From Aureispira sp. CCB-E (GTDB taxonomy: Bacteria; Bacteroidota; Bacteroidia; Chitinophagales; Saprospiraceae), in the NCBI RefSeq assembly GCF_031326345.1, contig NZ_CP133671.1, positions 5,967,001 through 6,031,000 of the forward strand: DNA of 64,000 nt, written 5' to 3'. Shown in pieces: positions 60,422-64,000 of the stretch; positions within the stretch are counted from its first letter, which is position 1, and every line of letters begins with the position of its first letter. The position numbers and the translations under genes are program-made. Below the pieces are notes generated by a model. It ran no database searches. It was given only the letters and a program-made list of their open reading frames with translations, and had not been told where the DNA came from.

Positions 60422-60630
60422 TAATTATTAATTCAATACTAACTTCGGGAATATTATTATTCTAGTATTGTAATCGCATGAGAGGCAAGACGTACTTAGT
60501 CTACTTCATTGCTTCGTAGGAATCATCTTTTTAGTGATTGTATAATATCTTTCAACTAAAAAGATGGTTTTATTATATCATCATTACAAATGCTAATTTT
60601 TCACGAAATAATCAATCAAAACAACTATCA

Positions 60631-61104
60631 ATGCTACTCTATCTCTTGCTTGGTTTTATTGGGCTTTTAGCTATAGGCGCTGTTCTTGCATCTAAAAATT
60701 CTAAAAAGAAAGCATTAAATGCTATTGCTCGGATAGAGGCTATGGAGAAAAAATATGAAATGTATGTCGAAAAAAATATACACAACCATATTCTAGAAAG
60801 AAATGACCTGCACGTAGACCCTAACCAACTTGCCAAAGATAGTTTGAGTGTCATTACTCCTGATCTTAATGGCTTAATTGCTCTTATCAATACAACTACT
60901 TATACTGCTGTTGACATCAATTATACTGCTCAGTATTTTCCAAATCTCGTTAGTTTAACTGAAAATTATTTTCTTCAAACTCAAAAAAGTAAAACAAAGA
61001 AATTGAGTCCACAAGAAGAAGAAAACTTTCGAACAAATGCCTTGGATGCCATTCATGCAGACATTCAAAGAAGATTGCTAGATGTCAAAATAGGAAACTT
61101 GTAA
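60631..61104 (+). CDS. small membrane protein of unknown function
   Basis: 157 residues from the ATG at 60631; an upstream TTG reading is less likely. One N-terminal membrane helix (LLYLLLGFIGLLAIGAVLAS) is followed by a Lys-rich stretch and a helical soluble part with a conserved-looking YTAVDINYTAQYFPNLVSLTENYFL. The family is not recognised. It is co-directional with glpK but 209 bp away, so it may be an independent unit. Confidence 0.6.
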   Translation: MLLYLLLGFIGLLAIGAVLASKNSKKKALNAIARIEAMEKKYEMYVEKNIHNHILERNDLHVDPNQLAKDSLSVITPDLNGLIALINTTTYTAVDINYTAQYFPNLVSLTENYFLQTQKSKTKKLSPQEEENFRTNALDAIHADIQRRLLDVKIGNL

Positions 61105-61118
61105 TTTATTTCGTTTTC

Positions 61119-61145
61119 CCATTTTGAAAACCGAATCCAAAATGG
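61119..61145 (+). terminator. terminator-like hairpin after the small membrane protein
   Basis: A perfect 8-bp stem CCATTTTG/CAAAATGG with an 11-nt loop lies 14 bp after the stop codon. The T-run is weak. Confidence 0.45.
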
Positions 61146-61252
61146 AACTATTTAGAAATAAAAATAATATATAAACCATTAGTAATCAGTATTTATTATT
61201 TTGTGGCACTAGTTTGGCATATAAGTAAGCATATCAACAAGTGATAATAATT

Positions 61253-62250
61253 TAGAAAAAGATAAATTTGGGTTTTAATTACTGCGTGAGTGCGCAAGCG
61301 CAGTTGGGGTGATTTAGGACTTGCATGAATGGGAATACATGCAAGTCCAATCTTCAACCGCTAAAACTTCTAAAAGATAAATTTGGGTTTTAATTGGGGT
61401 GATTTAGGACTTGCATGAATGGGAATACATGCAAGTCCAATCTTCAACCGCTAAAACTTCTAAAAGATAAATTTGGGTTTTAATTGGGGTGATTTAGGAC
61501 TTGCATGAATGGGAATACATGCAAGTCCAATCTTCAACCACTAAAACTTCTAAAAGATAAATTTGGGTTTTAATTGGGGTGATTTAGGACTTGTACGGAT
61601 GGGAATACGTACAAGTCCAATCTTCAACCGCTAAAACTTCTAAAAGATAAATTTGGGTTTTAATTGGGGTGATTTAGGACTTGCATGAATGGGAATACAT
61701 GCAAGTCCAATCTTCAACCACTAAAACTTCTAAAGATAAATTTGGGTTTTAATTGGGGTGATTTAGGACTTGTACGAATGGGAATACGCACAAGTCCAAT
61801 CTTTCACCGCTAAAACTTCTAAAGATAAATTTGGGTTTTAATTGGGGTGATTTAGGACTTGCATGAATGGGAATACATGCAAGTCCAATCTTCAACCACT
61901 AAAACTTCTAAAGATAAATTTGGGTTTTAATTGGGGTGATTTAGGACTTGTACGAATGGGAATACGCACAAGTCCAATCTTTCACCGCTAAAACTTCTAA
62001 AGATAAATTTGGGTTTTAATTGGGGTGATTTAGGACTTGCATGAATGGGAATACATGCAAGTCCAATCTTTCACCGCTAAAACTTCTAAAGATAAATTTG
62101 GGTTTTAATTGGGGTGATTTAGGACTTGTACGAATGGGAATACGCACAAGTCCAATCTTTCACCACTAAAACTTCTAAAAGATAAATTTGGGTTTTAATT
62201 GGGGTGATTTAGGACTTGTACGAATGGGAATACGTACAAGTCCAATCTTT
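61253..62250. repeat. 11-copy tandem array of 89-90 bp hairpin units
   Basis: Units begin with GGGGTGATTTAGG at 61306, 61396, 61486, 61576, 61666, 61755, 61844, 61933, 62022, 62111 and 62201 (period 90 bp, then 89 bp after loss of one A, then 90 bp). A partial unit starts at 61253. Each unit has an 11-bp stem around the loop AATGGGAATA (once GATGGGAATA). Three stem forms occur: GGACTTGCATG/CATGCAAGTCC (six), GGACTTGTACG/CGTACAAGTCC (two, fully compensated) and GGACTTGTACG/CGCACAAGTCC (three). Each unit also has a weaker TAAAAC/GTTTTA pair. The array lies between convergent genes. It contains no ORF and no CRISPR-like variable spacers. Confidence 0.9.
61281..61305. repeat. dispersed-repeat-like 25-bp insertion at an array junction
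   Basis: The sequence ACTGCGTGAGTGCGCAAGCG and the following CAGTT interrupts the first junction of the array between TTTTAATT and GGGG, which is uninterrupted elsewhere. It has terminal ACTGCG/CGCAGT and resembles a module of the dispersed repeat family. Confidence 0.65.
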
Positions 62251-62275
62251 TTCAGCCCATTCCCTACGACAAAAA

Positions 62276-62338
62276 ACCTTACCTGAAAAGTTTATAGAGC
62301 GTAAAGCCTAGCAACTAATCAGGTAAGGTCTTTTTTTT
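62276..62338. terminator. bidirectional terminator at the end of the array
   Basis: An 11-bp stem ACCTTACCTGA/TCAGGTAAGGT with a 32-nt loop has a T8 run on the plus side and a TTTTTTG run on the minus side. It lies 16 bp past the stop of the minus-strand DUF2490 gene and could also stop a transcript coming through the array. Confidence 0.75.
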
Positions 62339-62354
62339 CAACAAGCTTTTGGAA

Positions 62355-63122
62355 TTACTTAAAGCGTACTTTTTTCTTCTTTTTCTTTTTTGATTTGGTC
62401 TTATATTGGTAAGATAACACCACTACATGGTTATAATTTGCCCCATAGTATTGCATACCTATCTCCATAAAATACTTAACGCCTAAACTATGGTTAGAGG
62501 TGATTTTATAATTAGTTTTTACACCAGCCCGACATTTGGTAAATCCATTTAAAGCTCCCAATTCATCGTGAAAAAATAATTCAAAAAAAACTTCTGGATC
62601 GAATTTCCATTTCTTAAAATCATAACCAACTTCGATTCTATTTCTTAAGTCTTTTGTCCAGTAGTTTTTATAAATATCATCTTTTCTCTTTAGTTCATCT
62701 TTAAACTGTCCTCGTAATCGATAGTCTAAATGCAATCGTTTGAATTTAAACCGATATAAAAAATCAGCATGCAATCTCAGATGATTTTCATAATTATTAT
62801 CATCTAATGCTCCAATATAACGAAGCCCTACACCAATTTTTATTGGTTTTACCAACTTATGAAACCTAGGATTATATTGCGTTTCTACTTCTACTAAAAA
62901 TTGATCAAATTCAGGACTTGTTAACTTTGCTCTAGCCTGAGTACTTACAGTTAACTCCCATGACTTGTTAAATTTATAGTTGTACGACAAGTTCCCCCAT
63001 AATTCAACATCAATATCAACATCCGATGACTTTCCCTTGGACGATTTTTGAGCATGACTAGAAAATGAAAAAACTAAAAGAAAAAAAAGAGAGTGGATAA
63101 AATATACTTTTTGATTAATCAT
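62355..63122 (-). CDS. DUF2490 outer-membrane beta-barrel protein (second copy)
   Basis: 255 residues from the ATG at 63120-63122. The longer reading lies inside the CotH gene and lacks a signal. Here a signal peptide (YFIHSLFFLLVFSFSSHAQ) follows at once. Beta strands with alternating aromatics resemble those of the copy at 33245-33973 (RLHLDYRLRGQFKDEL, YKFNKSWELTVSTQARA, HVVVLSYQYKTK). The C-terminus is Lys-rich (KKKKKKKVRFK). It overlaps the CotH gene by 8 bp (ATGATTAA), so translation is coupled. Confidence 0.78.
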   Translation of the reverse strand: MINQKVYFIHSLFFLLVFSFSSHAQKSSKGKSSDVDIDVELWGNLSYNYKFNKSWELTVSTQARAKLTSPEFDQFLVEVETQYNPRFHKLVKPIKIGVGLRYIGALDDNNYENHLRLHADFLYRFKFKRLHLDYRLRGQFKDELKRKDDIYKNYWTKDLRNRIEVGYDFKKWKFDPEVFFELFFHDELGALNGFTKCRAGVKTNYKITSNHSLGVKYFMEIGMQYYGANYNHVVVLSYQYKTKSKKKKKKKVRFK

Positions 63123-64000
63123 GTTCAAAATGGCAAATTGATGATGGTTTAGAATTTCCACGGGGCAAAGCATAAATACTTTCTTTTCGATGTTGTATCC
63201 AGCTTTTTAGTCTCTCAACACACATTCGACCTCCCGTATGCTCCATACTTTCTGCTGTTTCAGCTTGTCTGTGAAAATGATCGACCAAAGCAATTAATGC
63301 AGTTTCATTCCATACATTATCCAATAAATACTGCATCTCTCTATCAAACATTTCTACAGCATCAGGACATCTAGAAAGTCTCCTTGGCAACTCTGCTGTA
63401 GTAAATTCTTTTAAGCTTGCTCCATGATCTACTACATAGTAATTTATACCCGAAGGGATAAAAACAGCTCTGTCATCATCATTAGGATCAAAATAAATAT
63501 ACGTATTGTTGCTGTTTCGGGCATAACCATCAGTATGATTCATCAGTACCTCTAGTGCCCAAAATTTAATAAATTTCTCAATATTAACATATTTGCTAAG
63601 CTTTGATACCAACTTATTGGTTGGTGTGCTAGATAATATTTTAGCAATTTTAGCAATTCGATATTTAGAACAATCAGTCTGCTCTGTTTTGCACTCCCAC
63701 CGACTCAACCAACTTGCTCTAAAATCTGTTAATTGGCATTCGTATAAATCTCCTGAGGCACTTCCAAAATTTCGGATTAAGAATTTTTCATCAATTGCCT
63801 CTACATGAGAATACACCCCCAAAGGCTCTTCATTAATAGAAACATTAGCCAAGTTGCATCTTGGAGCAGGATAATTTGCCCATTCCAGCAATTTGTAAAA
63901 CACACCTTGAATAACTCTAGAAGGATCTTCCGAATTATTGTTAAAAATAACATTGTGATGTATTCCTATAGGATTAAAATCTTTGTATCGATTCAGATTA
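63115..64000 (-). CDS. CotH-family protein, 5' end outside the window
   Basis: 295 codons are open to the window edge; the start lies beyond it. The first visible residues (IHHNVIFNNNSEDPSRVIQGVFYKLLEWA) and NEEPLGVYSHVEAIDEKFLIRNFG fit the CotH core. RNSNNTYIYFDPNDDDRAVFIP fits its late part. At the position where CotH proteins usually have a metal-binding Asp (as in WDNNE of the other copy), this protein reads FIPSGINYY. It may be a catalytically altered member. It precedes the DUF2490 gene with an 8-bp overlap. Confidence 0.8.
   Translation of the reverse strand, partial: NLNRYKDFNPIGIHHNVIFNNNSEDPSRVIQGVFYKLLEWANYPAPRCNLANVSINEEPLGVYSHVEAIDEKFLIRNFGSASGDLYECQLTDFRASWLSRWECKTEQTDCSKYRIAKIAKILSSTPTNKLVSKLSKYVNIEKFIKFWALEVLMNHTDGYARNSNNTYIYFDPNDDDRAVFIPSGINYYVVDHGASLKEFTTAELPRRLSRCPDAVEMFDREMQYLLDNVWNETALIALVDHFHRQAETAESMEHTGGRMCVERLKSWIQHRKESIYALPRGNSKPSSICHFEHD

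Follow-up and report, generated by a model that had tools for sequence, protein, structure and literature searches.

A tandem array of hairpin modules in Aureispira appears to be a multi-copy regulatory RNA of a kind not described before

The window, a 64-kb stretch of the genome of the marine bacterium Aureispira, contains a single tandem repeat according to TRF (61304-62249, period 89, 10.6 copies), and the question it raises is what kind of element a series of near-identical hairpins between two genes can be. Cutting at ATAAATTTGGG divides the array (61262..62253) into eleven units, which start at 61262, 61377, 61467, 61557, 61647, 61736, 61825, 61914, 62003, 62092 and 62182. Most units measure 90 bp (units 2-4 and 10) or 89 bp (units 5-9); unit 1 (61262..61376) reaches 115 bp, owing to a 25-bp hairpin-like insert, and unit 11 (62182..62253) is without linker. 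The repeat analysis, the unit splitting and the gene calls thus agree with the earlier note, which had described eleven tandem 89-90 bp units between convergent genes; it had also set CRISPR aside, rightly, since the linkers are near-identical from unit to unit and unique spacers are absent. The module has two parts: a G/U-rich stretch that hardly varies, AAUUUGGGUUUUAAUUGGGGUGAUUUA, and behind it an 11-bp hairpin with a largely kept loop, AUGGGAAU. The optional insert of unit 1, ACTGCGTGAGTGCGCAAGCGCAGTT (61281-61305, ACTGCG..CGCAGT), interrupts the otherwise conserved stretch; small variants included, it recurs in the prophage-like copies L010, L011, L012 and L013 and in L074, while the insert found in the last unit of the L043 array is a different one.

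The array lies between a plus-strand gene for a 188-aa protein (60538..61104), which has no Pfam match and serves as the marker of a conserved locus, named locus A, and a DUF2490 gene on the minus strand (62355..63173), so that the genes on the two sides are convergent. Three features can be recognized ahead of the first unit. An inverted repeat read from the sequence, CCATTTTG..CAAAATGG (61119..61145), is possibly a site for an enhancer protein or the terminator of the 188-aa gene; similar repeats precede several other arrays, not all. A sigma-54-like promoter, GTGGCACTAGTTTGGCA (GG-N10-GC), is located on the plus strand at 61203..61219, and a transcript is predicted to start from it at about 61230, with a short leader (61230..61261) containing a weak TATCA/TGATA stem, which in a fold test of the window leader was not clearly better than shuffles. 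Downstream, a perfect 11-bp terminator hairpin with T8 (62276..62338; fold of 62270-62340, -26 kcal/mol, z -6.3) is probably common to the array and the convergent DUF2490 gene.

The promoter-like site was evaluated on 23 leaders, many of them near copies of each other, using a matrix built from 41 sigma-54 sites of E. coli (PMC4591121). The window site ranks 5 among 127,968 positions. A site scoring at least 10.4 is found in 19 of the 23 leaders, the score being lower in L009, L051, L056 and L078; in 19 of 23 the best site is 42-47 bp ahead of the first unit, and both hold in 17. With respect to the consensus TGGCAC-N5-7-TTGCT (PMC12316311), the -12 element reads TGGC, not TTGC, and in L009 the GC is missing. 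The sequence TGGCAYNNNTTTNGC occurs six times in the genome that holds the window, every time at an array (control, 3), the L009 array not being among them; the same genome has rpoN. At the other end, in 15 of the 16 multi-unit arrays of the genus no inner unit has as much T after the stem as the last one, the T run of the last L042 unit being judged by eye; L044 is a tie, with 7 T in 10 and a broken run in inner and last units alike. In the window the inner units have 3-4 T in the 10 positions after the hairpin and the last unit has 6, the T run behind its hairpin (62212-62243) being the richest of the array.

The three stem forms listed in the earlier note, GCATG/CATGC, GTACG/CGTAC and GTACG/CGCAC, are all present, the third in units 6 (61736..61824), 8 and 10, where it leaves one mismatch within the plus-strand stem; the full stem is however of 11 bp, not 5. 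Three units, folded on both strands, are far more stable than dinucleotide shuffles (z -3.9 to -6.1). Units 5-6, 7-8 and 9-10 resemble copies of one two-unit block, thus the window alone accounts for about one independent compensatory change and one later single change, and the case for covariation rests on other loci and species. Compensatory change is seen at 9 of 13 predicted pairs in a set of 26 chosen units; within the 11-bp stem 98.9% of cells pair, changes on both sides occur at 8 of 11 pairs, and the covariation score is 0.555 versus a shuffle mean of 0.275, a value reached by none of 500 shuffles. Two weaker measures of covariation were reached by 5 and 25 of 500. In a wider set, A6, 96.6% of stem cells pair in an alignment that had been fitted to the structure. 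Across all 26 units 15 of the 16 columns of the conserved stretch, GTTTTAATTGGGGTGA, are identical. The pairing and the covariation score support the proposal that compensatory change reflects a structure under selection.

The strand on which this structure is kept was assessed on hairpins whose loop is AUGGGAAUA or the single extended form of it. They came from 25 sources, which include some loci twice through a second assembly and do not include L060, L059 unit 3 or the last L042 unit; from the 23 distinct hairpins a chance match and the chimeric unit 3 of L045 were dropped. The remaining 21 hairpins contain 16 plus-strand G-U cells, not all independent events, versus one A-C cell, which is the third stem form itself. 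This 16:1 ratio argues against the minus-strand RNA and the DNA cruciform that had been put forward earlier; indeed, read in the plus direction the array is preceded by the promoter-like site and followed by the terminator, thus the minus strand is not supported. An uncompensated stem, named in advance as a sign against selection for structure, is found in a single unit, L045 unit 3: two stem types are combined in this chimera, the arms are mismatched and the stem is broken, which indicates that units recombine, within the loop.

Some further properties of the unit can be described. A similar inner hairpin, reading ..GCAAAGC..GCGAAGCGG or CGCAAAGC..GCAAAGCGG, lengthens the loop in L010 unit 1, in L011 unit 1 and in the last L042 unit; in the two prophage arrays it is thus the opening unit that is extended. 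Unit lengths over the arrays are 89, 90, 93, 98 and 102-105 bp. In the predicted folds of most inner units the conserved stretch can pair with the following linker, and therefore it may not be free; such a pairing was rejected as a specific feature, since in 37 of 40 distinct inner units at least 10% of shuffled linkers pair equally well or better, the three units below 10% being all from L043. A peptide starting from the loop ATG was also rejected: no frame runs through, because units differ in length and L059 unit 3 and L060 lack the ATG.

Other copies, for which the earlier note had suggested a search, exist in the genome and in relatives. A search of the 7.39-Mb genome, which belongs to the same species as Aureispira sp. 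CCB-QB1, gave twelve matches; eleven of them fall in seven array loci with 31 units (11, 7, 5, 3, 3, 1 and 1), and the twelfth covers about 32 bases without a surrounding array. In every array a leader precedes the units, and the last unit is the one most like a terminator. Five of the seven loci sit in closely related elements, L010-L014 (C1, approximately 2.11, 3.12, 3.21, 5.23 and 5.26 Mb), which are 95-97% identical over the roughly 10 kb that follow the RNA and 79-97% identical, depending on the piece, over roughly 5.5 kb ahead of it. The L012 element is called prophage-like because it encodes a GH108 endolysin and an LPD1 protein; the other proteins tested have no telling match, and a P-loop-like ATPase was recognized by eye. 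The cargo behind the RNA terminator differs in three of the five elements: a TPR protein in L011, a 2OG-Fe(II) oxygenase in L013, and a 327-aa protein with an IS1 transposase in L014. The identical hairpin and flank are found in units of both chromosomal and prophage loci.

In the genus, 8 of 9 genomes match in a DNA search at E <= 0.001, own genome included. Two chromosomal loci keep their neighbor gene across species, and the number of units varies. At locus A, orthologs of the 188-aa gene (39-75% identity) adjoin the arrays L061, L044, L056 and L060; L058 was assigned by its downstream gene alone, which is similar to that of L044 and L056. The window has 11 units at this locus, L061 5, L044 7, L056 2, L060 2 and L058 4, and the next gene is convergent wherever it is readable. 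Locus B (L009, L042, L059, L078, L079 and relatives) follows one gene family, with 48-80% identity to the L009 member, which was tested with Pfam and gave DUF3078; L009 has 7 units, L042 9, L059 3, and L078 and L079 one each. Here the next open frame is co-directional with the array at 6 of 7 loci. In L078 and L079 the single unit is a plain terminator hairpin, and single units stand at one shared chromosomal site in other Saprospiraceae; therefore the ancestral form was probably one unit. In a second assembly of the species, G002, the window array is split across two contig ends, with 3 and 7 units. The copy of another Saprospiraceae assembly, G156 (L074, contig JAHDGJ010000030.1), has the same array end as L011 and identical sequence after the terminator, and is therefore due to transfer or contamination.

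A search of 84,980 genomes for an exact 23-nt core, which may omit own-genome records, gave 13 contigs, every one with Aureispira or Saprospiraceae in its title; an exact 21-nt core was absent from the viral contigs searched. Successive covariance models, whose weaker matches are partly due to chance, matched 22 of 398 genomes of the family (R1, E <= 0.01), 24 of 298 of the order (R2) and 7 of 395 of the class (R3, E <= 0.005), own genome included in each count, and the R3 matches outside the family are weak. Because weaker matches of the preceding round went into the seeds of R2 and R3, it is probable but not proven that the wider family is truly related. Its units consist of GAATATGGGTTTTAGGTGTTT plus a hairpin, in tandem in L103, L105 and L106 and as four copies in 0.7 kb in L086. 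A third site is represented by L086, L103, L105, L109 and L152, beside a gene with 30-64% identity to that of L103, the member tested with Pfam, which is pyridoxamine oxidase-like. Third-site units in other genera read GGGTTTTAGGTGTTT followed by a G+C-rich hairpin, tandem in some.

Comparison with known RNAs gave partial likenesses. In Rfam 15 scans of 5 kb of the window and 13 relative loci, no family reached the gathering threshold, and the two sub-threshold matches per scan were taken as chance. CsrB and RsmZ carry in one RNA many hairpins with G-rich loops and an ANGGA core; the array loop is UGGGA instead, and CsrA was not found in the own genome with one Pfam model. The RNA of type III toxin-antitoxin systems has the toxin gene directly downstream on the same strand, whereas the next gene in the window is the convergent DUF2490 gene. 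CrcZ and CrcY have repeated binding motifs for their partner, CA motifs, through which they relieve Hfq-Crc repression; the array is built of hairpin modules. A likeness may lie in control, as RpoN drives crcZ and crcY, the noncoding RNAs that relieve Hfq-Crc repression in Pseudomonadaceae (PMC6292655), and the array has a sigma-54-like site. Differently from those bacteria, no Hfq was found in the Aureispira genome, again with one Pfam model. CcsR1-4 of Rhodobacter sphaeroides, which are homologous to one another, were likened to the array by description. They are several sRNAs processed from one transcript and differ in being four copies, derived from the 3-prime UTR of ccaF1 with involvement of RNase E (PMC8625941). 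The closest build is that of FopS, the multi-copy paralogous sRNAs of Bacteroides that act with RbpB: a conserved single-stranded 5-prime stretch, then a terminator hairpin, with a FopS sequence reported in a phage too (PMC11697453). The same build is present in the single-unit loci L013, L014, L078 and L079. FopS are described as separate RNAs of about 65-70 nt with sigma-ABfr promoters (PMC11697453), in contrast to the tandem polymers and the sigma-54-like site found here; an RRM_1 protein was not found in the Aureispira genome with one Pfam model, which was positive in the control Bacteroides ihuae, and FopS and array were compared by build. Thus, the array resembles FopS in build and, by its predicted promoter, CrcZ in control, yet it fails a tested feature of each. 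A structured-RNA survey names Bacteroidetes motifs (PMC2864571), with which the array was compared only through the Rfam scans; no description of the array RNA was found in the literature, in part judged by titles.

Taken together, the array is likely a plus-strand RNA gene, and it seems to represent a type of multi-copy regulatory RNA that has not been described. The reading that we prefer, with a probability of roughly 0.6, is that of a sigma-54-controlled RNA polymer of paralogous sRNA modules, acting in trans by dose, either as a sponge or as an sRNA with many sites. The promoter at 61203-61219 would start one transcript near 61230, running through the eleven modules and ending either with the unit 11 terminator or with the strong hairpin 62276-62338. 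The ancestor was probably one module with an intrinsic terminator, an sRNA made of a 5-prime conserved stretch plus terminator; the module would have been amplified in Aureispira, and the inner copies would have lost T residues behind the hairpin, so that the polymerase reads on, the stem drifting by compensatory change and the loop being largely kept. The polymer, or monomers of about 90 nt cut from it, most likely acts in trans: copies of the conserved stretch may bind a common partner, protein or RNA, in proportion to unit number, with a sigma-54 activator switching the RNA on.

The other readings share part of this evidence. A long RNA that stays whole and only soaks up one RNA-binding protein, as CsrB or CrcZ, is possible, if doubtful: a nearly invariant stretch and a conserved loop repeated up to eleven times would suit it, as would a promoter of the type by which RpoN drives crcZ and crcY (PMC6292655), but several loci have only one or two units, and a protein other than the known ones would be needed, the search of the own genome having found no CsrA, Hfq or RRM_1. 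Excised monomers that pair with mRNAs through the conserved stretch have precedents in FopS, for the 5-prime seed, terminator hairpin, multiple copies and phage sequence (PMC11697453), and in CcsR1-4, for several sRNAs from one transcript (PMC8625941). We hold this base-pairing reading only tentatively, as complements of the core outside the arrays show no enrichment in the own genome (47 versus 41 in the control), which led us to reject them as mRNA targets, and Hfq and RRM_1 were not found there. The usual sRNA seed is also shorter than the conserved stretch of the array. It is rather unlikely, on the present data, that the arrays form a Saprospiraceae-wide RNA family without Rfam 15 match, in which a single terminator-type sRNA was polymerized, sigma-54-driven, prophage-borne and copy-number-tuned, with the polymer loading or sequestering ribosomes or binding a new RNA-binding protein, in bacteria apparently devoid of Hfq and CsrA; the conserved GGGGUGAUU mimics a Shine-Dalgarno sequence and could pair with the 3-prime end of 16S rRNA, as aligned by hand.

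The direction of the neighboring genes and the T runs bear on the terminator or roadblock, insulating convergent genes, that had been proposed earlier. Units probably descended from a terminator, and the convergence at locus A, would favor such a role; however, an intrinsic terminator array has a T run after each hairpin and the window inner units have none, the array has its own promoter-like site, and the next frame is co-directional at 6 of 7 locus-B loci and in the L010, L012 and L013 elements, thus this role is very unlikely. A DNA-level element, either a cruciform or an array for protein binding or recombination, is still more improbable: the identical hairpin and flank at chromosomal and prophage loci and the chimeric unit, a sign of recombination, could be explained by it, but not the plus-strand G-U bias, the promoter-like site, the terminator polarity and the conserved neighbors.

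Little is understood about RNA regulation in Bacteroidota without Hfq, and the RNA polymer proposed here offers an entry point. Its dose would be set by repeat number, it occurs both at host loci and in prophage-like elements, and the natural series from 1 to 11 units at shared loci provides material on the selection of RNA-module copy number. If this reading of the array is true, one module could reveal a main RNA-binding partner in Bacteroidota.
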